Made by a program: the position numbers and the translations under genes. Below, in pieces: positions 1-45,777 of a DNA stretch of 51,178 bases. How positions within the stretch are numbered: position 1 is the stretch's first letter; each line of letters begins with the position of its first letter. Origin of the DNA: a virus; IMG/VR virus record IMGVR_UViG_3300033182_000624, positions 1 to 51,178 of that record; one strand, given 5' to 3'. Below the pieces are notes generated by a model. That model did no database searches, was not told the origin of the DNA, and worked only from the letters and a program-made list of their open reading frames with translations.

Positions 1-403
1 AAAATATACCATCACCTTGCTCTAAATTTGTAATCTTGTTATTCATTAAAAATTCGCCGCCAACATAGTCCTTAGGATTGTTAAGTTGAATGGTCATACC
101 GCAGTCGCTCAGGCCGTCAATTGGATGCCAACTATCTTTGTGTTCGCCTATTGATGCACCTGTAGGATAATGCATAATTCTGAAACTCACAATATCAAAT
201 GGTAATTTAGATTCGATAGTTAATATATAATCTTCTACTTCTGTTTTTCCTAACCTATAAAAATTATAATGCCATTCCGGTGATACATGTAATCTATCAA
301 CTATTTCGCCTGTAAAGGTTTCTACTTTTTCAGGTAATGTTTGCAACATGTCTATTAGATTTTTACATTCGCTACTATTTAAAATGTTTCTAAAATATTT
401 CAT
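1..403 (-). CDS. 2OG-Fe(II) oxygenase, C-terminus beyond left edge
   Basis: This open frame starts at the ATG at 403 and runs off the left edge, so the C-terminus is not seen. The visible 134 residues contain an H-x-D iron-binding pair (GEHKDSWHP) followed by MTIQLNNPKDYVGGEF, the usual core of phage prolyl-4-hydroxylase-type 2-oxoglutarate/Fe(II) dioxygenases. The distal His and the 2OG-binding Arg would lie outside the window. The start overlaps the stop of the upstream oxygenase gene (ATGA), so the two are translationally coupled. The substrate is unknown; phage members of this family are proposed to hydroxylate proteins or nucleotides, which is inference here. Confidence 0.8.
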   Translation of the reverse strand, partial: MKYFRNILNSSECKNLIDMLQTLPEKVETFTGEIVDRLHVSPEWHYNFYRLGKTEVEDYILTIESKLPFDIVSFRIMHYPTGASIGEHKDSWHPIDGLSDCGMTIQLNNPKDYVGGEFLMNNKITNLEQGDGIF

Positions 404-4782: not shown

Positions 4783-5715
4783 ATGAATATACATTTAGAT
4801 CTCACAACTAATACTTCAGTTTTTAATCCGCTTTCTGCAAAGGGGCAGTGGATACATCACCGATTTGGTGCAAGAAATTTAAATTTAGAGTTAGATTTTG
4901 ATATAGTAAAACATATAATAGATCAAAAAAATGTTAACAATATTACTCTTAATTGTACTTATGGTGATTCGTTATCTTACAGTCATATATATGATTTATT
5001 GGACTATTGTCATACAAAACAAAAATATTGTACTATTATTACATATGGCAGTAATATAGAAAAGTATATAGAAAAGATTTCTGAATACAACTTTATGCTG
5101 TTTTTAAAAATATCAGATAAAGTATTTCTTCATGCTGATGTAGATCACATATTAGATGTTTGTAAAAAATATAAAAACGTTATGGTCGAAAACACAATAT
5201 TTAAACATAATAATAACGATAAAATAAAACAAATTTGCGAAGATAATCAATGGATCTACTTAGAACAAAAAGGATATGATCTCAGCGGATTCTGCACAAG
5301 TATCATCGATGAACATTCCAATTGGTTGTACGATGTGCATTCAATTGATTCTAACGAACCCAGGACATTGATCAAAAGCACCAAAGCATGGCACCGACTT
5401 AAAATGTTTGTTAAACCAATGAGCGGAGAGTCTATTTTAAATAATCCTTATATTCCGCATACACATTACGCAGATGACTGGCTTCCTGCAAATGAAGATG
5501 TCATTGTAAGTTTAAGTGGGCATGTAATTAAAAATCTAGAACGTGCAAGTATATTTGCCAATGCTTTGTGTTCTGATTGGGATGGCAAAAATATTGATCT
5601 AGACAGTGACTACAATTTAAAAATTTGTGGGGTTTTAAACAAATTTAAAAAGAAAAATTTAGACGACTACAGTTTACATCATCAAAAATTTAATCAAATT
5701 ACACCGTTTTGCTAA
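4783..5715 (+). CDS. Radical-SAM-like protein lacking the cluster cysteines
   Basis: A 310-residue protein. The segment ITLNCTYGDSLSYSHIYDLL and the following IITYGSN resemble the first strands and the TNGS turn of radical SAM TIM barrels, but the C-x3-C-x2-C motif is absent. It may be a degenerate paralogue or partner of the radical SAM enzyme encoded convergently next door, with which it overlaps by 17 bases. The ATG lies directly after the subtilase terminator and has no visible Shine-Dalgarno, so how it is expressed is unclear; read-through or a weak promoter in 4741-4770 are options. I regard the coding frame as real from its length and composition. Confidence 0.6.
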   Translation: MNIHLDLTTNTSVFNPLSAKGQWIHHRFGARNLNLELDFDIVKHIIDQKNVNNITLNCTYGDSLSYSHIYDLLDYCHTKQKYCTIITYGSNIEKYIEKISEYNFMLFLKISDKVFLHADVDHILDVCKKYKNVMVENTIFKHNNNDKIKQICEDNQWIYLEQKGYDLSGFCTSIIDEHSNWLYDVHSIDSNEPRTLIKSTKAWHRLKMFVKPMSGESILNNPYIPHTHYADDWLPANEDVIVSLSGHVIKNLERASIFANALCSDWDGKNIDLDSDYNLKICGVLNKFKKKNLDDYSLHHQKFNQITPFC

Positions 5716-6733
5716 TAGCAATATCTGATATATTATTGCAATACTCAAACGGACAAACAGTATAACCTTTCGGTAGTTCCCAACTGTTTATTTGAGTAAT
5801 ATTTCCAAAGTTTTTTGCACCACACCAACTGCTGTAAATATCACCGGTTGCATCTATATTAAGAGATTCATATCCTATGTGGCATTTCATACCTTTAAAT
5901 GCGTTTAGGCCTTCGTTTATAATTTGATGGTTTTGAACATAAATTGTTTTACCGTTATCATATACAAATTCAGTCATGTTGCTGGTATCGATTACTGGCT
6001 CCACATTTTCTTGCGGCAATTCTTCCTTTTCTTCTACAGTTTTCTGCGGCATAGGCCGAGGTTTTATACCTGGTCTACTTAGTACTTCTAACTCGCTATC
6101 AGAATAATCGTAAAACGTTTCCTGCTTACTATGACGCCCTAAGAACTTCTTATACATGGTTTTAACACATATACTGATGTTGTAATATCTATTTTTATCA
6201 CAGTCTTTAAAATGTTCTCGAAGTTGCTCTACCCATTCGCCTAGTTCATCTACCTGGCCTCCAATTCCTGCAATATTAATGCTTAGATAAACATGATCTT
6301 TTATATCATTGATTACTTGTTCGAAATGTTCTTTATCTTGAGATTCAGGGTGAAAAGTGAGTATTACATTATCCATATAATGCTTGGTTTTAGACCACCA
6401 ATTAATGGTTCTACTTGCATTAGTATACACTGTGCTAGTTGCATTATACTCGCTTATTTTGCGTATAATATCTTCAAATCCAGGTATTACAGTGACTTCT
6501 CCCCCTATTAATTCATAGTCTGTGCGTTGTTGTAATGCGTTGTAGTGCGTTGATATCTTTTCGATGGTGTCAATGTATACCTGTGTATTTAACCATGGTT
6601 TAGAACCGTCGTGTAATACAGTAGGGCAGTAATTACATTCGTAATTGCACGAATTACCCATGTTCCATTGTATTCTAATGTTATTGTCAAGGCCTCTAGC
6701 ATGTGGCCCTTTTACTGATATTAAAGTTGACAT
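5699..6733 (-). CDS. Radical SAM enzyme with SPASM-like C-terminus
   Basis: A 344-residue protein. Cys29, Cys33 and Cys36 (CNYECNYC) form the C-x3-C-x2-C motif that binds the AdoMet [4Fe-4S] cluster. The LIGGEVT segment is the GGE AdoMet-binding motif, followed by the VYTNAS turn. The C-terminal part has further cysteines (MKCHIGYE, SSWCGAK, TVCPFEYC), like the auxiliary-cluster SPASM/twitch region used by peptide-modifying enzymes. Its start overlaps the PAAR gene stop by one base. Known relatives modify peptides, proteins or cofactors; the substrate here is unknown. The phage metK gene in the same window could supply AdoMet. Confidence 0.88.
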   Translation of the reverse strand: MSTLISVKGPHARGLDNNIRIQWNMGNSCNYECNYCPTVLHDGSKPWLNTQVYIDTIEKISTHYNALQQRTDYELIGGEVTVIPGFEDIIRKISEYNATSTVYTNASRTINWWSKTKHYMDNVILTFHPESQDKEHFEQVINDIKDHVYLSINIAGIGGQVDELGEWVEQLREHFKDCDKNRYYNISICVKTMYKKFLGRHSKQETFYDYSDSELEVLSRPGIKPRPMPQKTVEEKEELPQENVEPVIDTSNMTEFVYDNGKTIYVQNHQIINEGLNAFKGMKCHIGYESLNIDATGDIYSSWCGAKNFGNITQINSWELPKGYTVCPFEYCNNISDIAISKTV

Positions 6734-37349: not shown

Positions 37350-37882
37350 TATTCACCCTCAAATTCAATTAAAGTTTTAACGTTATATCCGCTGTTCTTT
37401 ATTATAGCACTTCCTCCTAAATCGGGCAAGTCTATTACTGCCAAAATTTGAATATTTTCTTTAGGGATATCCCAGTGTTCGTGAATTAGATCTGCACATG
37501 CTAGTGCTGTTCCGCCAGTAGCAATAAGATCATCTACAATAGTAATATTACCTTGTATGGGCGATATTTTTTGTATGTGTAATTCTGTTGATCCGTATTC
37601 CAAATCAAAACTTTTGCTGACTGTTTCATTAGGTAACTTGCCTGGTTTTCTTGCAGGCACAAATGGCAAATAAAACTTTTCTGCTAAAGGGGCACCAAAA
37701 ATAAAACCTCTACTTTCAATGCCAACAATTACATCTGGATTAAATCTGTGTGCTTCAAAACACATAGATAGCATTACACTTTTAAAAGAGTTCGGATCTT
37801 CTAATATGCTGGTTATATCTCTATACTGAACTCCTGCTATAGGGAAATCCGGTATTGTTCTAATTTTATCTTTAAAGTCCAT
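37349..37882 (-). CDS. apt: Adenine phosphoribosyltransferase
   Basis: Converts adenine and PRPP to AMP. The PRPP-binding loop is IVDDLIATGGTALAC; FVPARKPGKLP is the flexible loop segment; VIVGIESRGFIFGAPLA is the family signature. About 177 residues, normal length. Start at 37882 (MDFKDKIRTIPDFP) overlaps the metK stop in TAATG, so it is translationally coupled to metK. Adenine is released when MTA, SAH or 5'-deoxyadenosine is cleaved, which makes the pairing with AdoMet synthesis sensible. Confidence 0.93.
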   Translation of the reverse strand: MDFKDKIRTIPDFPIAGVQYRDITSILEDPNSFKSVMLSMCFEAHRFNPDVIVGIESRGFIFGAPLAEKFYLPFVPARKPGKLPNETVSKSFDLEYGSTELHIQKISPIQGNITIVDDLIATGGTALACADLIHEHWDIPKENIQILAVIDLPDLGGSAIIKNSGYNVKTLIEFEGE

Positions 37883-38973
37883 TAAAATAAATCCACTGTT
37901 TCCCACGGTAAATTTTCTTTACCAAAGTGACCATAATTTGTAGTTTTTGTTAAATCTAAACTAAACAAATCAAATTTATCAATTATACCCTGAGGCGTTA
38001 AGTCAACTTTATCTCTGAAATAGTCTGCAAATTCGTTTCTAACCAACCCATCAGCATAAACATATACACTGGTTGGTTCTTTTACACCAATAGCATAACT
38101 TAATTGTACTGTGGCATTTTTAGCCTTGCCACTTGCTACTATGTTTTTAGCCAAGTACCTTGCCATGTATGCCGCACTTCTATCAACCTTAGTAGGATCT
38201 TTACCACTAAATGCACCCCCACCGTGTGGAGCATATCCGCCATAAGTATCAACAATAATCTTTCTACCTGTTAATCCTGTGTCACCATCTGGCCCGCCAA
38301 TAACAAATCTGCCTGTTGGATTAATTAAAAATCTAGTTTTATTTAGATTAACTTCTTTAAGTTCATCTCTGATAATTTCTTCTATTGCAGATCTTATAAC
38401 ATTAATACTCATTTCGTCGCTGTGTTGTGTACTACAAACAATAGTATCAATGCCTAATGGCTTGTTAATTGTTTCGTAGTTCATTGTTACCTGGCTTTTG
38501 CTATCTGGCTTAATCCAGTGTTCTGTGTCAAAACCTCTTTCTTTCTCAAGTCTTCTCAATATTCTATGACTGTAATGAATAGCACTTGGCATAAAGTTTG
38601 AAGTCTCGTTACATGCATAACCAAACATAAGGCCCTGATCACCTGCGCCAAAATCATCTGTGCCTAATGCTATGTCTGCACTTTGCCCATGCAATTCGTT
38701 ATAAACCTTAACATTCTTCCAATGGAAACCGTCTTGCTCGTACCCAATTCTTTTGATGGTATCTCGAACAATATGTTCAATTTCTTTTTTGTTAAATTTA
38801 TCACTTTTATATTCGCCTGCTAGTGTAACCATATTAGTTGTTACCAATGTTTCTACTGCGGCTCTGTGATGTTTTTTACCATCTAGTAAGTAAGTTGCTA
38901 CAGCATCAGAAATTAAATCTGCTACTTTATCCGGATGCCCCGAACTTACACTTTCACTTGTAAATTGATACAT
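37882..38973 (-). CDS. metK: S-adenosylmethionine synthetase
   Basis: Makes AdoMet from ATP and methionine. Signatures: SESVSSGHPDKVADL (N-terminal), GAGDQGLMFGYA (ATP-binding hexapeptide) and GGGAFSGKDPTKVDRSAAY (the P-loop-like motif). At 363 residues it is only slightly shorter than bacterial MetK (about 384) and all catalytic motifs are intact. A phage-encoded MetK is uncommon. Coupled to apt. It could support DNA or RNA methylation and the radical SAM enzyme of this window. Confidence 0.96.
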   Translation of the reverse strand: MYQFTSESVSSGHPDKVADLISDAVATYLLDGKKHHRAAVETLVTTNMVTLAGEYKSDKFNKKEIEHIVRDTIKRIGYEQDGFHWKNVKVYNELHGQSADIALGTDDFGAGDQGLMFGYACNETSNFMPSAIHYSHRILRRLEKERGFDTEHWIKPDSKSQVTMNYETINKPLGIDTIVCSTQHSDEMSINVIRSAIEEIIRDELKEVNLNKTRFLINPTGRFVIGGPDGDTGLTGRKIIVDTYGGYAPHGGGAFSGKDPTKVDRSAAYMARYLAKNIVASGKAKNATVQLSYAIGVKEPTSVYVYADGLVRNEFADYFRDKVDLTPQGIIDKFDLFSLDLTKTTNYGHFGKENLPWETVDLF

Positions 38974-38974
38974 A

Positions 38975-39364
38975 TTAGTTCCTCGTTAATTCACTTTCTG
39001 CTATTTGATCCCATGTGGCATATTGTGTTGTGTCAAATGCATTAGGTGGAAATTGTGGCGGTGTCCATTTTACTGTTCTTTGCCTTTTATAAATTGTTTT
39101 TAACCAGACCTTTTCACCACTTAGTGTTGTGATTGGTTTCCAAGCAAACCATTTTGTCCATGGTGTATATGTTGCGTCTGTTGGTTGCGGTTTCATATGT
39201 TTTCCGTACCTCGTATATGCTGGGTGTCCGTCTGGTGCCGCTGATATCCCGTACTTGGTGATATTTTTAGTAGGATTTATTAAATATTTTTTTCCATTAA
39301 TCGTTGTGTACGGGTTACCATGCTTATCTGTTTTACCTAAAAGATAGTTAAGATAATTTACCAT
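38975..39364 (-). CDS. Hypothetical protein (129 aa)
   Basis: Begins MVNYLNYLLGKTDKHGNPYT. Rich in Thr/Lys/Trp/Pro, with the segments YGKHMKPQPTDATYTPWTKW and VKWTPPQFPPNAFDTTQYAT. Two bases from metK and overlapping the kinase-nucleotidyltransferase gene by 17 bases. No family recognised. Confidence 0.55.
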   Translation of the reverse strand: MVNYLNYLLGKTDKHGNPYTTINGKKYLINPTKNITKYGISAAPDGHPAYTRYGKHMKPQPTDATYTPWTKWFAWKPITTLSGEKVWLKTIYKRQRTVKWTPPQFPPNAFDTTQYATWDQIAESELTRN

Positions 39365-40151
39365 CCTTCCTCAGTTGCTCTCTAATTTTTGTTGCACTTA
39401 TATTGTGCGTAGCATCATCAAATGTTTCCTGCTCAATTTTATAACCAACATCTCTACCGTATGTGATATTCATAATATTTGGCACAGGATAACATCTAAA
39501 TTTGCCTGCATATTCTGCTAATTCTAACTCTAAATTTTCACAAATCTCTTCTACTGACCAAGGATTGCTTTCGCTTCTTGGCATGTCTCTGACCAGTAAT
39601 GCTACTTGGCCGTGCTTTGCTAACGCCCGTTCGAATAATGCTTTGTGTCCTGGATGGAAGGGTTGAAATCTACCTAACATTTGAGTAGTTGGTTGTTTTG
39701 GCTGAAATTCACTGTCTTTGATATCTACAGCAATTAATCTTGCCCACTTTTCTATTGCTTCTTCAGTCCACCAATCGTCTGCTGTTATTTCAATATCAAC
39801 ATTGATTGTGTCATCTGGTTTTTCAAAAACTTTATTTGTATCTTCGAAACGTCCTTCTTCGATAGTGTTCATCCAAATAACATATTCAGGCATAAAATCA
39901 TTTCTCAACTGATTTGTTGGACACACAAAATCAGCCAATCCGTATCTTCCCTTAGCAACACTTTTGCGTACATAATCTTGCATACGCTTCATTTGTCTTG
40001 CTCTGCCTTCAGGGCTAAAATCCCAATCGTTAAATTTTTCTCTTATCTCATCAGCATTATACCAATCAGCGTTATTTAATACCTCAACTAATCTTTTAGC
40101 AAGTGTGGTCTTACCTGATCCTGGTAATCCACATAAAAGTATTCTTTTCAT
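39348..40151 (-). CDS. P-loop kinase / nucleotidyltransferase fusion
   Basis: A 267-residue two-domain protein. N-terminal: APS-kinase-like P-loop (LLCGLPGSGKTTLAKRLVEV) with a following NADEIREKFNDWDFSPEGR. C-terminal (from about 158): nucleotidyltransferase fold with MLGRFQPFHPGHKALFERAL (H-x-G-H) and HNISATKIREQL (the ISSTxIR-type motif), as in NMN or cytidylyl-transferases. Cyanophages carry similar fused proteins. Probably activates a small metabolite, maybe NAD salvage or a sulfur/phosphate adenylate. The substrate cannot be told. Confidence 0.78.
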   Translation of the reverse strand: MKRILLCGLPGSGKTTLAKRLVEVLNNADWYNADEIREKFNDWDFSPEGRARQMKRMQDYVRKSVAKGRYGLADFVCPTNQLRNDFMPEYVIWMNTIEEGRFEDTNKVFEKPDDTINVDIEITADDWWTEEAIEKWARLIAVDIKDSEFQPKQPTTQMLGRFQPFHPGHKALFERALAKHGQVALLVRDMPRSESNPWSVEEICENLELELAEYAGKFRCYPVPNIMNITYGRDVGYKIEQETFDDATHNISATKIREQLRKDGKLS

Positions 40152-40901: not shown

Positions 40902-41399
40902 TTATAGCATATCTGCTATATCCATGTCCTTAACTTTGTTTGCTTCTTTTACAAATAATGCACACTTAGGCTCTGGTTTGTCTTCTAGAGGAACAACTAA
41001 AAGGTGTCCGTTTTTTAATTTAGGAAAGAACCATTTCACATCTTGATACACATTTGTAATTTGTATTTCTTCTGCCTTAGGCATCCAACTTTTCATTGGA
41101 TTAAAAATTGGTGTAACAAATCCTCTATTGTTTAAACTTGCCAGAGGTATTACTTCAATACCACCAAAATCATCGTCACTAGTAACAATGCTCCAATCCA
41201 TTGGCATCTGTAAATTATATTCGCCGATACTTAAACAGATTGCTGGAGCATGAAAACTTTCCAAAAAGATTAAAGGTAACCAATAATAATCTTGAAACTC
41301 TGCATCTCCTGCGTCAAAAACGCAATATCTTAATTCTTCTACTTCGTCTGGCACACGATCTAGATCATATGCTGTATTCTCTAAGGTTAAAATTTTCAT
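40902..41399 (-). CDS. Conserved-type hypothetical protein (165 aa)
   Basis: Begins MKILTLENTAYDLDRVPDEV. Compact alpha/beta protein with the segments YYWLPLIFLESFHAPAICLS and VKWFFPKLKNGHLLVVPLED. Resembles a conserved cyanophage protein of unknown function, from memory. It overlaps uvsW by four bases and so is probably co-expressed with it. Confidence 0.62.
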   Translation of the reverse strand: MKILTLENTAYDLDRVPDEVEELRYCVFDAGDAEFQDYYWLPLIFLESFHAPAICLSIGEYNLQMPMDWSIVTSDDDFGGIEVIPLASLNNRGFVTPIFNPMKSWMPKAEEIQITNVYQDVKWFFPKLKNGHLLVVPLEDKPEPKCALFVKEANKVKDMDIADML

Positions 41400-42853
41400 T
41401 TATACTCCAATTTTGTAACTTGAAATGGAAATCCTTGCTCTTTATAAAAGGCTTTTCTTTTAGTCAAGTGTCGTTTGCTGTACTTCAAATTACTTGTTAT
41501 ATCAACAACATTAACATAATCCTTGTCCTGTGCTTTACGAATACCTCTACCGATACTCTGTATCACACGAACAAAACTTTTACCAGGTTCCAACAGCACC
41601 AAATTAAATATTCTCGGTATGTTGATACCAACTGCCGCCACACCGTATGTTGCAACAATGACTTTGTTATCCATTTCTGAAACTTCTTCGTATTCTTTTT
41701 GCCTATCTTTTGTTTTCATAGAACCGCTCACAAATACCCAGTCGTCGTTTCTATCTGCCAACATTTCACCTGTAGCGATTCTATCAATTAATACTAATGT
41801 GTTGCCTGTAGTAGAAAGACCGTTTATAATTTCGCTTATATGATCTATTCTTTTAGGGTCTGTTACTAGCCACTTTAATTCCTGTGCATAACTGCTAAAT
41901 CCTAATGCACCATCTTGTAACTGCAATACACTAATATCTAAGTCAGCCAGTACACCCATATCTTGCAATTCTTTACTGCTAAGATTACCAACTACCGGAC
42001 CTAAACAACAAGTACATGCAACTGCTTCGTGTTCGTCTTTGGGCACTGTACCAGTTAGTCCCCAACGTATAGGAACATTAGCAAATGGGCCACTTAAAAG
42101 ATTTCTTAGAACATCTGCTTTTGCTTTGTGTACTTCATCAACCATTATACAAACAACATTGTCTAAAAACACATCTAAGTCAATTGATGCTTCATTAGCC
42201 TTTGTTTTCTTTTCTAACACTGCTAAACTTTGCCATGTACAAATAGTATGTGTCTTATCGTATTCTTTTCTGTCGCCATATAATACACCTACATCGAGAC
42301 CTAAATTTTTATAATCTTTTTCTGTCTGCACTACTAAATCTTTATTAGGTACAATAACAATAGTCCTACCATATTGTTGTGCTTTATGACTCAGTACAGC
42401 AGTAACAAGAGTTTTTCCTGCTCCTGTTGCAACTTCTTGTAGGCATTGTGTGTTTTCTAAAAATTTATTAATTACATCGACTTGATAATCTCTTAGCAGT
42501 ATAGGTTCTCCTTCTGCAGGGTGCCCTTTAGGCCAAGCAATGTCTTCGTAATCTGTTTGCTCAACTTTAGAAAATTCAAATTGCCAACTCTGTCGCATGT
42601 CTTTTACATCGATACTATAGCCGGCTTCCTGAACTATAGGCAGTAGTTTGTCTAATAAATTAAGATATGTTCTACCACCTATATCGCAAAATCTTACACA
42701 ACCATCCCATCTGCCCAATTTGTAGGCAGGCATATGATATGCGTATGGTAAAAAGTATTTTGCTTCATCAGAAATTCGTCTTCTAGTTTTTACATCTAAA
42801 TCTAAAAACTTTACATTTACTTCGTCTCTGATTTCTAACGTTGTTTTAGGCAT
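41396..42853 (-). CDS. uvsW: UvsW-type superfamily 2 helicase
   Basis: A 485-residue SF2 helicase. Walker A EVATGAGKTLVTA, DExH box IMVDEVHKAKAD, motif III GLTGTVP, and motif VI VIQSIGRGIRKA, with an N-terminal DNA-binding domain (LRDYQVDVINKFLENTQCLQ Q-motif region). T4 UvsW branch-migrates recombination intermediates and unwinds R-loops, switching replication mode. Length is close to T4's 503. A sigma-70 promoter lies immediately upstream, with its -10 ending five bases before the ATG. Confidence 0.93.
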   Translation of the reverse strand: MPKTTLEIRDEVNVKFLDLDVKTRRRISDEAKYFLPYAYHMPAYKLGRWDGCVRFCDIGGRTYLNLLDKLLPIVQEAGYSIDVKDMRQSWQFEFSKVEQTDYEDIAWPKGHPAEGEPILLRDYQVDVINKFLENTQCLQEVATGAGKTLVTAVLSHKAQQYGRTIVIVPNKDLVVQTEKDYKNLGLDVGVLYGDRKEYDKTHTICTWQSLAVLEKKTKANEASIDLDVFLDNVVCIMVDEVHKAKADVLRNLLSGPFANVPIRWGLTGTVPKDEHEAVACTCCLGPVVGNLSSKELQDMGVLADLDISVLQLQDGALGFSSYAQELKWLVTDPKRIDHISEIINGLSTTGNTLVLIDRIATGEMLADRNDDWVFVSGSMKTKDRQKEYEEVSEMDNKVIVATYGVAAVGINIPRIFNLVLLEPGKSFVRVIQSIGRGIRKAQDKDYVNVVDITSNLKYSKRHLTKRKAFYKEQGFPFQVTKLEYK

Positions 42854-42858
42854 AGTTT

Positions 42859-42888
42859 ATTATACTACCATACATATTGAAAAGTCAA
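42859..42888 (-). promoter_or_regulatory. Sigma-70 promoter for uvsW
   Basis: -35 TTGACT (42883-42888), 18-bp spacer, -10 TATAAT (42859-42864). It overlaps the last codons of the TonB-receptor gene. The ATG is only five bases after the -10. Confidence 0.85.
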
Positions 42889-44505
42889 GTAATATTCTCG
42901 ACCTTTGTTGTTATAAAAAGGCAAAATTTCTACTTCTTGGTTTAACACATTCTCAACTTTTAAACTGAGAGTGTAGTTAGGCCATCTTTTGGTTAGGTAG
43001 AAATTTAGTTTTTCTAAATCTTCAAGTTCATCACCGTCATATGGGCCTGGTATTCTATCTCTATTAAATGTGTATTTTGCTCTAAATTCTGTGTTAGCAA
43101 ATTCAGTGGTGTATTGTATCATGCCCATGTACTTGGCTACTCTTGGTTGCTCTGTGTCGTTGTATCTAAACTGTACATCAACAGGCCCAAAACTTTGAGC
43201 ATACTTGGCACCTTGTGTGGTATATCCACCTGCGTTGTAATACACATTGTCTGTGTAATTGTAATCTATTGATTCATCAAAAATGTATTTAAAGAAACTA
43301 AGTACACCATATCCAAATTCATAACCTTTGCCCTTCTCAGGTGTTAGATCAGGATTTGCTGTTACCCAGCCATCACCGTATCGCTCATATAAGTTGGGTT
43401 TTCTAAAACTGGTACCAACACTGGCATAAAAAAATCCGCTTTCGAATCCAAAACGATAAGCATTCTGATTGTCGTTGCCTTGTCTAATACCTATGTTATA
43501 CTTGTTGCCTAACACTTCAGCATTAACACTCACAAAGCCAGCAAAGTTTTCTTCTGATATTGTGTTGTACTGTTCTCTGTTATAATCTAAACCGTATGTT
43601 ATATCAAGCAGTGTAGACAGTTGTGATTGGTTTATAAAGCGGAAGTAATCTCTGCTACTTTCATTTACATAAGTTGAAGCAGTATCAGTGAAATACTCTG
43701 CGTTGTTTTCACTTCTACCTAAGGTGAAGTTTTCGTTTTGTATGGTTATAACATATCTGTCGCCTATTTGCTCACAGTTGTTGCTCACTGAAAAGTCTGC
43801 GGCATAACAGTTGTCGTAATCATACTCATAGTCTGTGTATTTGCCTGTGACAGTAAAGTCGCCTATATCAAAGTTAAACTTACCGCTGACATTTTTATAA
43901 GCATCTTCTTCTGTGTTGTCGTTCCTAGCACTTTGTTGTTGTGTGTCAAACAGTGTAAACTGTAAATTGTCAGTTGGGGCAACACTCACATAAGTGTTAT
44001 CACTGCTGTATCTGCCCATAGCATGATGTTTGATAGTGTCGTCTATTAACACTGTACCAGCAATACTACCTGAACCATACAGCACACCGTTAGGACCTGT
44101 AATAACTTTTACAGTTTGTCCAGTGGCTATATCGTGCCCAAAATCATACCAACCGCTACCAGGCTCATTAGCAGGCACATCGTTAACAAAAACTGCGGTG
44201 TGAACCAATTGAGCACCCGACGGATTATATCCAACAAAGCCACCATAACCTCCTGCGTTATATGTGAAAGCAGGTATAATACTGCTTATGATTCGTGAAC
44301 TTGTGACCGGGTCCACTTTGATTGTTTCTTCCTGTTGTGCCACTACAACAATTTCTTCCACAAACTCGTCAACTGTATGACCATGCCATGTTACATTATG
44401 ATTGTCAGCATTGGCTTCACTTGCCCATAACATGAACAGCATGAATGCTACTACAAAGTAAAAGGGTGAAAAGTTTAGGTGGAAGTTTTTATCTAATTTA
44501 TTCAT
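42865..44505 (-). CDS. TonB-dependent outer-membrane receptor
   Basis: A 546-residue secreted protein. Signal peptide: FYFVVAFMLFMLWASEANA with cleavage probably after ANA (about residue 33). Residues 50-56 (EEIVVVA) fit a TonB box. Plug-domain motifs follow (VHTAVFVNDVPANEPGSGWY; KVITGPNGVLYGSGSIAGTV). The rest alternates Tyr/Asn-rich strands of a beta barrel, ending in a C-terminal aromatic strand (YYLTFQYVW). It is shorter than most receptors (650-800), but plug and barrel ends are present. It follows a consensus sigma-70 promoter and CTGGAG. Phage role could be nutrient uptake or blocking superinfection. Confidence 0.9.
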   Translation of the reverse strand: MNKLDKNFHLNFSPFYFVVAFMLFMLWASEANADNHNVTWHGHTVDEFVEEIVVVAQQEETIKVDPVTSSRIISSIIPAFTYNAGGYGGFVGYNPSGAQLVHTAVFVNDVPANEPGSGWYDFGHDIATGQTVKVITGPNGVLYGSGSIAGTVLIDDTIKHHAMGRYSSDNTYVSVAPTDNLQFTLFDTQQQSARNDNTEEDAYKNVSGKFNFDIGDFTVTGKYTDYEYDYDNCYAADFSVSNNCEQIGDRYVITIQNENFTLGRSENNAEYFTDTASTYVNESSRDYFRFINQSQLSTLLDITYGLDYNREQYNTISEENFAGFVSVNAEVLGNKYNIGIRQGNDNQNAYRFGFESGFFYASVGTSFRKPNLYERYGDGWVTANPDLTPEKGKGYEFGYGVLSFFKYIFDESIDYNYTDNVYYNAGGYTTQGAKYAQSFGPVDVQFRYNDTEQPRVAKYMGMIQYTTEFANTEFRAKYTFNRDRIPGPYDGDELEDLEKLNFYLTKRWPNYTLSLKVENVLNQEVEILPFYNNKGREYYLTFQYVW

Positions 44506-44542
44506 AATTCTCCAGGTTAAAATAGTTAAAATATAAAACTTA

Positions 44543-44570
44543 ATTATACACGATTACTGTGAAATGTCAA
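44543..44570 (-). promoter_or_regulatory. Consensus sigma-70 promoter for the TonB receptor
   Basis: -35 TTGACA (44565-44570), 16-bp spacer, -10 TATAAT (44543-44548); both hexamers perfect. Leader of about 30 bases with CTGGAG. Confidence 0.9.
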
Positions 44571-44599: not shown

Positions 44600-44624
44600 G
44601 AAGCCCCCGAGAACCGGGGGCTTC
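44600..44624 (-). terminator. Terminator after the AAA+ ATPase gene
   Basis: Perfect 10-bp GC-rich stem (44600-44609/44615-44624); the minus strand continues TCTCTTTTATAC. Confidence 0.85.
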
Positions 44625-44626
44625 AA

Positions 44627-44727
44627 AGTGTTCGATTGTGGGAGGACTAGTTATCGAACACTAGGGGGGAACCCATAATAATATTTATTATTGGGTCCAT
44701 GCAAGGATCACTGAAAAGTGACCCTTG
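44627..44727 (-). ncRNA. Structured 3' region with further hairpins
   Basis: Between the ATPase stop and the terminator lie a perfect 10-bp inverted repeat (44627-44636 with 44653-44662), a CCCAATAATA-type hairpin with a bulge (44671-44696), and a hairpin over the gene end (44702-44727). This could be a 3' UTR or a small stable RNA processed from the transcript. Its status as a separate RNA is inference. Confidence 0.4.
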
Positions 44728-45742
44728 TCATACAAGTTGACTCAGCAAGTTCTTTCCAAGTCTTAGGGCTCATCTGACGCAAGTCAGCAATCTTAAGAAC
44801 CATACGCAATGATATCTCACGGAGCCTATTAGCCTTCAATACCATAAAGTCAACAATTTCTTTGTTACCTTCTTCACCAAAGTTATACTCGTTCAACATA
44901 CCGTCTCGCACAATTTGGTTGATTCGAAGGAACCTATCACTAACACTGTCCATCTCAAGGTCAATATAGTGACACCTTGACATAAGTGCTTCTAAGTGAT
45001 CTTTGATCTTTTTGCTCTTAACACCTTCAAAGTTCACATTGGTAATAAAGATACAGCCACCTTTGAATTCGAACCTATCAGGAATACCTTCCCTACGCAA
45101 TGCGTTGGATTCTGACTTCCAAGAAATATATCGCTTCTTACCTGAGTCCAAAACAGCCTTGAGCATGTTCAGACATACTTCATCAAACAAGATGCTGTCA
45201 CAGTCATCAAACACTAGGATGTCACCTGGGTTTGAGTTGTTAAAAAGAGTTTGATACAAACCAATCGGTGTCATAGAACCTTTTACAACTTCGGTCCTAG
45301 GTGGCTTACCAGCCAGTTTAGTCATTGCATCATATTCATCAAGAATAGTTTCGACGCCAAATGACTTACCAACACCCGGAGGGCCTGACACAATCAAACC
45401 ACGGACTACACCGTTAGCAACTGCATCAGTCATTTGATCTAGAATTTCGAAGCGACCTTTGATTCTATCCATTGCTTGCTCTGGAGTTTCTGCTTTTTTC
45501 TCTTCTTGCTGAGCAACTGGATTAGACACTTTAAATTCCTCTTTGTTAGATGGTTCAACATCTGCTGGTGTTTTAAGCAACACACGAATTTTGGTAGCCT
45601 GAGGACCCATAACAGCACTGCCATCAACAGTAATGAACGGTCCTTTTTTGCCAAATGAAATTGGCTTTACTACCGGAAAAACCGTATCTTTGATAGGGGC
45701 GTTACGGTAAGTACCCTTTTTGATTTTAACAAAGTTTGTCAT
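44708..45742 (-). CDS. AAA+ ATPase
   Basis: About 344 residues. Walker A LIVSGPPGVGKSFGVE, Walker B DILVFDDCDSIL, sensor-1 CIFITNVNF and an arginine-containing stretch SRCHYIDLEMDSVSDRFLRI. A C-terminal helical lid ends LRQMSPKTWKELAESTC. It is a stand-alone AAA+ protein conserved in T4-like marine phages; a clamp-loader or MoxR-like chaperone function is possible. The start at 45742 (MTNFVKIKKG) follows GGGAGG; the longer frame lacks that. It has its own sigma-70 promoter, so early expression. Confidence 0.82.
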   Translation of the reverse strand: MTNFVKIKKGTYRNAPIKDTVFPVVKPISFGKKGPFITVDGSAVMGPQATKIRVLLKTPADVEPSNKEEFKVSNPVAQQEEKKAETPEQAMDRIKGRFEILDQMTDAVANGVVRGLIVSGPPGVGKSFGVETILDEYDAMTKLAGKPPRTEVVKGSMTPIGLYQTLFNNSNPGDILVFDDCDSILFDEVCLNMLKAVLDSGKKRYISWKSESNALRREGIPDRFEFKGGCIFITNVNFEGVKSKKIKDHLEALMSRCHYIDLEMDSVSDRFLRINQIVRDGMLNEYNFGEEGNKEIVDFMVLKANRLREISLRMVLKIADLRQMSPKTWKELAESTCMTRVTFQ

Positions 45743-45777
45743 TTTAGCCTCCCACAGCATTAATTAACAATATAACT

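Follow-up and report, generated by a model that had tools for sequence, protein, structure and literature searches.

A large-phage genome encodes a TonB-dependent transporter (TBDT) that descends from BtuB, the bacterial outer-membrane transporter of cobalamin (B12). We interpret the gene as a phage-adapted BtuB, a TonB-energised outer-membrane importer of cobalamin or a related corrinoid that would act during infection, and assign this reading a probability of roughly 70%. The TBDT fold, the descent from BtuB, the purifying selection on the gene, its placement between phage genes, the absence of a riboswitch and the pairing with a B12-radical-SAM gene in one lineage were computed; ligand, timing, host and benefit are inferred. 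The gene lies in a virus record of 51,178 bases (the window), which also carries T4-type replication and recombination genes: UvsX, UvsY, gp32, UvsW, a helicase and a primase. The features of the locus are listed in Table 1.

Table 1. Features of the transporter locus in the window (aa, amino acids; nt, nucleotides).
Feature	Position	Strand	Basis
TBDT gene, BtuB-like, 546 aa	42865..44505	-	Intact open reading frame with ATG start; Plug domain; AlphaFold2 plug and 22 strands; nearest solved structures BtuB
Predicted signal peptide, residues 1-33 (MNKLDKN...ASEANA)	44407..44505	-	Judged by eye
TonB box EEIVVVA, residues 50-56	44338..44358	-	Alignment of 40 members
Plug domain, residues 59-151	44053..44331	-	PF07715 match; aligns with BtuB plug
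Predicted 22-strand beta barrel, residues 161-545	42871..44025	-	DSSP on AlphaFold2 model
Extracellular loop L2 (residues 194-201), whose E199 and D201 align with BtuB calcium ligands D193 and D195	43903..43926	-
Extracellular loop L3 (residues 228-244, YDYDNC...NNC), whose D231 aligns with BtuB calcium ligand D230; two invariant Cys	43774..43824	-
Sigma-70-type promoter TTGACA-16-TATAAT	44543..44570	-	12/12 positions match
Ribosome-binding site GGAG, 4 nt 5' of ATG	44510..44513	-	Sequence reading
Intrinsic terminator between AAA gene and transporter	44600..44624	-	Strong hairpin of 11 pairs, 8 G-C, then T-rich tail
AAA ATPase (phrog_1250), upstream conserved neighbour	44708..45760	-
UvsW-like helicase, downstream conserved neighbour	41396..42853	-	
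metK, S-adenosylmethionine synthetase, possible metabolic partner in same cluster	37882..38973	-	Pfam E 1e-30 to 1e-54

Architecture of the transporter and its relation to BtuB

The TonB box, the plug and a predicted 22-strand barrel place the product in the TBDT superfamily. All receptor signals named in the original prediction (a leader, EEIVVVA, plug motifs and a C-terminal Trp strand) were present, and the reading frame was intact. In 40 aligned members of the family, E50 and V54 of the TonB box were invariant and E51 nearly so, and a hydrophobic leader preceded the box in most. The Pfam Plug model (PF07715) scored 29.5 bits on the window transporter (cut-off 23.9), the plug motif GPNGVLYGSGSIAG occupies residues 137-150, and the protein ends in ...LTFQYVW. 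As the original prediction had suggested, we modelled the structure; AlphaFold2, given a 40-member alignment of the transporter's own relatives, returned a plug and exactly 22 barrel strands (pLDDT 85, pTM 0.82), and the top Foldseek matches were all TBDTs.

Two further observations concern the extent of the family. Residues 359-401 of the window transporter weakly matched (E 7e-6) the PHROG phrog_5687 (760 positions, no assigned function), possibly a further family of phage TBDTs. The transporters of four loci (L053, L066, L067 and L026) were 659-676 aa long and had sizeable additional loops in alignment columns 401-450 and 554-625, which may have arisen locally under pressure from the ligand or at the surface.

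By profile, fold and tree, BtuB was the closest family to the phage transporter. Searched against the PDB, the family profile matched BtuB with an E value of 5e-19, and the next molecule, the colicin I receptor, reached 2e-3. The same profile found BtuB alone in a whole E. coli genome, and hhalign aligned it with E. coli BtuB over 455 columns at 99% probability. In the Foldseek search, the first 11 PDB places were all E. coli BtuB (E 1e-21, TM 0.76/0.70), above siderophore and haem receptors. Siderophore receptors gave no more than weak CirA-type matches in the profile search, far below BtuB, which disfavours both a siderophore receptor and iron, the nutrient that had originally been offered beside cobalamin. 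The sole match in NCBIfam was TonB-B12 (TIGR01779), at 29.3 bits against an equivalog cut-off of 599.7; we therefore assign the protein to a clade derived from BtuB and do not call it a BtuB ortholog. A score so far under the cut-off also means that specificity may have shifted.

Like E. coli BtuB (PDB 1NQH, 2GSK), the phage protein has a TonB box, a plug, a 22-strand barrel in its predicted structure and acidic residues at three calcium-cage positions. It differs in being ~70 residues shorter, with 18-20% identity in the best structural alignments, in lacking two of the calcium aspartates and in having an extra invariant Cys pair in L3. Its gene, moreover, is phage-borne, lacks a riboswitch and has a sigma-70-type promoter.

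A virus-specific clade maintained at a phage locus

In viral contigs, relatives of the transporter numbered 85 with a protein query and at least 234 with an alignment query, counts whose loci overlap in their source contigs and come mostly from fragmentary records; records of 339, 250 and 217 kb were among the carriers. At loci with both the AAA gene and uvsW, a sample seeded from the AAA gene so that the presence of the transporter was not presupposed, the transporter lay between the two in 43 of 54 cases. The 11 sites without it had gaps of 86-110 bp, exemplified by an empty site of ~108 bp in L128. The outcome that would have refuted the original prediction, absence of the gene from this locus in related phages, was therefore not observed. 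To call such receptors rare in phage genomes goes too far for this clade, in which the transporter gene is common. For the neighbouring AAA gene, Pfam and NCBIfam gave no support for a link to CobS.

TBDTs are plentiful in marine metagenomes, and a chimeric assembly, or a passenger bacterial gene with no phage role, could in principle produce such a record. Recurrence of the junctions across many contigs ruled out the former. Occurrence in three different phage contexts, dN/dS values of 0.08-0.25 in ten pairs (purifying selection) and the single virus-only clade with no close cellular copy argue against either form of this explanation, which we consider extremely improbable. With phage genes on both sides, purifying selection and a position nested within bacterial BtuBs, the transporter is a host-derived metabolic gene maintained in viral genomes.

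The carriers are a widespread, uncultured group of large phages. UvsX of the window was 57-67% identical to that of jumbo phages such as Phosso, Atu_ph07, CBB and GAP32, and these distant relatives were the only cultured phages available as a guide to the host. A search of 84,980 bacterial and archaeal species gave no close relative of the transporter. The 50,697 annotated phage records contained no family member, only 23-28% matches to bacterial-type BtuBs, and in a library of predicted viral structures the sole strong match, 11% identical, was a SusC-type receptor from an uncultured marine phage. The family is therefore virus-specific and does not duplicate a gene that any host carries today.

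Maximum-likelihood analysis grouped the 40 viral proteins in one clade (support 100/100). This clade was nested among BtuBs, its long stem measuring 1.96 changes per column, and the branch separating E. coli-type BtuB had support of 95/95. The best cellular homologue found was L331, a BtuB of a Pseudomonadota genome, and the sampled genomes of its order and class held no closer copy. The phylogeny that had been suggested for finding a donor clade thus placed the family among BtuBs, but its nearest cellular relative sits beyond a long branch. Several of the riboswitch-controlled BtuBs of Pseudomonadota share with the phage family the YDFGH plug motif and the E/D and D residues at the calcium positions, and L331 additionally has the EYDN-C...NDC loop. 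These proteins differ from the phage family in being cellular and under riboswitch regulation, and a long branch lies between them and the phage clade.

Ligand side, regulation and competing readings

We take the calcium-binding aspartates of BtuB to be D179, D193, D195, D230 and D241, following the numbering of the BtuB structure papers, and verified the residue letters at these positions in the sequence. The three phage residues aligned to D193, D195 and D230 (E199, D201 and D231) were each invariant, and acidic, in 40/40 members. In the phage family D179 is mostly replaced by S or A and D241 by Q; several cellular BtuB relatives lack them as well, these two positions being variable among cellular proteins. 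In BtuB, the five-aspartate cage holds calcium near the B12 pocket, calcium increases the affinity for B12 about a thousandfold, and loops L2-L5 are key for B12 binding (PMC7360065).

Loops L2 and L3 had the highest conservation in the family (0.79 and 0.78, versus 0.58 for the strands), and together with the plug apices they were kept across members of 34-93% identity. The L3 signature of the family, YDYDNC...SNDC, occurs in L331 in a shorter form (EYDNC...TNDC). That the outer loops are conserved fits a ligand that has stayed the same and speaks against a decoy shaped by an arms race.

BtuB-like proteins serve as phage and colicin receptors, and phages modify host surfaces, so that the protein could be imagined as a decoy or substitute receptor at the surface, keeping out rival phages or colicin-like toxins or preventing re-adsorption of progeny. 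Exclusion of rivals had been part of the original prediction; it is neither shown nor needed here. Of all loops, L2 and L3 on the ligand side are the best conserved, the opposite of what a decoy would lead one to expect. The retained TonB box also counts against a decoy, which leaves the pairing with a B12-radical-SAM gene and a nucleosidase unexplained. A pelagiphage TBDT has been taken as adsorption-related by its authors (PMC10504331); even so, we regard a decoy as improbable here.

The best cellular homologues provide evidence of an independent kind. In a sample of 398 genomes from the larger group Pseudomonadota, all ten of those studied had a cobalamin riboswitch directly upstream (nine RF00174, one AdoCbl-II), which indicates that the nearest cellular kin of the phage protein are B12 transporters. 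Through this element cobalamin represses the cellular genes. No cobalamin riboswitch was found in the window or in 30 phage records; riboswitch control of the phage transporter was accordingly rejected, and its expression probably escapes repression by B12.

Alternatively, the transporter may derive from BtuB but now import some other scarce molecule, such as a different tetrapyrrole, haem, a siderophore or a further kind of metal complex; this reading the same data make unlikely without making it negligible. Several features would suit it: the length of the stem branch, the replacements at D179 and D241, the missed equivalog cut-off, the family-specific L3 with its two invariant Cys, and the use of iron enzymes such as class I ribonucleotide reductase (RNR) by these phages. 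However, conservation of pocket-side L2, L3 and plug apices over so wide a range of identity speaks against it, as does the fact that L331, which has both the EYDN-C...NDC and YDFGH motifs, lies under a cobalamin riboswitch, and siderophore receptors score far lower. Import of cobalamin or a related corrinoid by a phage-adapted BtuB is the reading we prefer.

The promoter of the gene is of a type that recurs in the module. The window contains three exact TTGACA-16-TATAAT sequences, where 0.05 would be expected. All lie on the minus strand: ahead of the transporter, ahead of the AAA gene (45805-45778) and at 46010-45983. Near-perfect copies precede uvsW and gp32, so the exact promoter is the module's standard type and not peculiar to the transporter. 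Near-identical consensus promoters (TTGACA/T-16..18-TATAAT) were also noted on the minus strand of the replication module at 42888-42859 and 50321-50293; consensus promoters before several genes of the module suggest separate strong sigma-70-type units. Among 39 non-redundant relatives, 22 had a promoter matching 11 or 12 of 12 positions, 37-88 nt 5' of the chosen start. The perfect promoter and ribosome-binding site of the original prediction are therefore real, whereas "early" was read from the promoter type alone.

Cobalamin and SAM genes in the carrier phages

In the main context, metK recurred in the cluster of the transporter among relatives. At 14 loci, in which some contigs are counted twice (L020 5441-5989, L025 5388-5936 and 12 others), an MTA/SAH-type nucleosidase (PF01048) lies immediately before the transporter, with the surrounding genes on the opposite strand. 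Its best match was a generic nucleosidase model, and it missed all equivalog cut-offs. The different genome location of this pair indicates that the transporter moved or was acquired at more than one site. A third lineage (L072, L353 and L355) is more divergent; there, the transporter gene is followed immediately by one for a 482-aa protein that combines B12-binding and radical-SAM domains, the former scoring under its Pfam cut-off.

B12-binding radical-SAM proteins were encoded in 9 of 30 records of the phage group, including all three above 200 kb. Four were examined, and their best models were either the KedN5 family, which depends on methylcobalamin, or the two Pfam domains. Such proteins were almost absent from cultured phages, with one 25% match. 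One of the 11 transporter-free records also has such a gene; transporter and enzyme are thus not strictly tied. The KedN5-like proteins of L236, L238, L239 and L240 are ~616-629 aa long, and in L238-L240 the gene adjoins one for a 318-aa protein that by eye resembles an NAD-dependent epimerase, hinting at sugar or surface modification.

No B12 enzyme was found in the 51-kb window itself. Its RNR subunits are class I, which rules out a need of the phage RNR for B12 there, and its radical-SAM protein (5699-6733, minus strand; best models STM4011, with a weaker viperin-family match) has no B12 domain. Six RNR matches were found in relatives. The window also encodes a protein (39348-40151, minus strand) that joins a P-loop kinase to a nucleotidyltransferase resembling NMN adenylyltransferase, NadR-like with the order reversed and possibly serving NAD salvage, and a subtilisin-like protease (PF00082; 3003-4727, plus strand) on the strand opposite to most genes.

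Of the roles first put forward for the transporter, nutrient import with cobalamin as a candidate is thus the one the analysis favours, in view of the proximity to BtuB in sequence, fold and tree, the riboswitch-controlled kin, and the B12 enzymes encoded in relatives and adjoining the transporter in one lineage. Iron is disfavoured, and the exclusion of rivals is not needed as an explanation.

According to the mechanism we propose, a phage ancestor would have taken up a bacterial btuB once, long ago, after which riboswitch control was lost and a strong host-type promoter gained. The transporter would be made early in infection and exported to the host outer membrane, where it would work with host TonB-ExbBD and the inner-membrane BtuCDF, whose presence in the host we assume. 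B12 uptake could thereby be raised when the riboswitch would shut off the host's own btuB. The imported B12 may feed the phage's B12-dependent radical-SAM methyltransferases, the host methionine synthase or both, and through phage MetK it may support the SAM pool.

TBDTs as such are not new to phages. The marine megaphage Mar_Mega_1 encodes one that was proposed to raise nutrient uptake in infection (PMC9723777); it is likewise a TBDT of a large phage, in that case a marine one, but it is of the SusC type, with carbohydrates suggested as its substrates. The pelagiphage Skadi also has a TBDT in its genome, annotated between tail and capsid genes and read by its authors as adsorption-related (PMC10504331); no Skadi sequence was among the matches to the window transporter in annotated phage records. 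Cyanophage cobS and other cobalamin-linked auxiliary genes touch cobalamin metabolism as well, but cobS acts in biosynthesis, whereas the step here would be uptake across the outer membrane. In the literature searched, one phage TBDT had been proposed to import nutrients (SusC type, carbohydrates), another was read as adsorption-related, and no phage BtuB or phage vitamin-import gene was described.

More broadly, a widespread lineage of large phages might run its own cobalamin acquisition, with a riboswitch-free, virus-evolved BtuB supplying B12-radical-SAM methyltransferases and a SAM cycle (MetK, nucleosidase), so that vitamin import would come under phage control; the chances for and against this wider proposal seem to us evenly balanced. 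The phage protein would then be a compact BtuB with a virus-specific pocket. A B12 importer would offer a testable reason for the B12-radical-SAM enzymes of these phages. In aquatic communities, B12 is a vitamin that is shared and in short supply. If our reading is true, infected cells would be B12 sinks beyond the limit set by the host riboswitch, and infection would be tied to competition for the vitamin.
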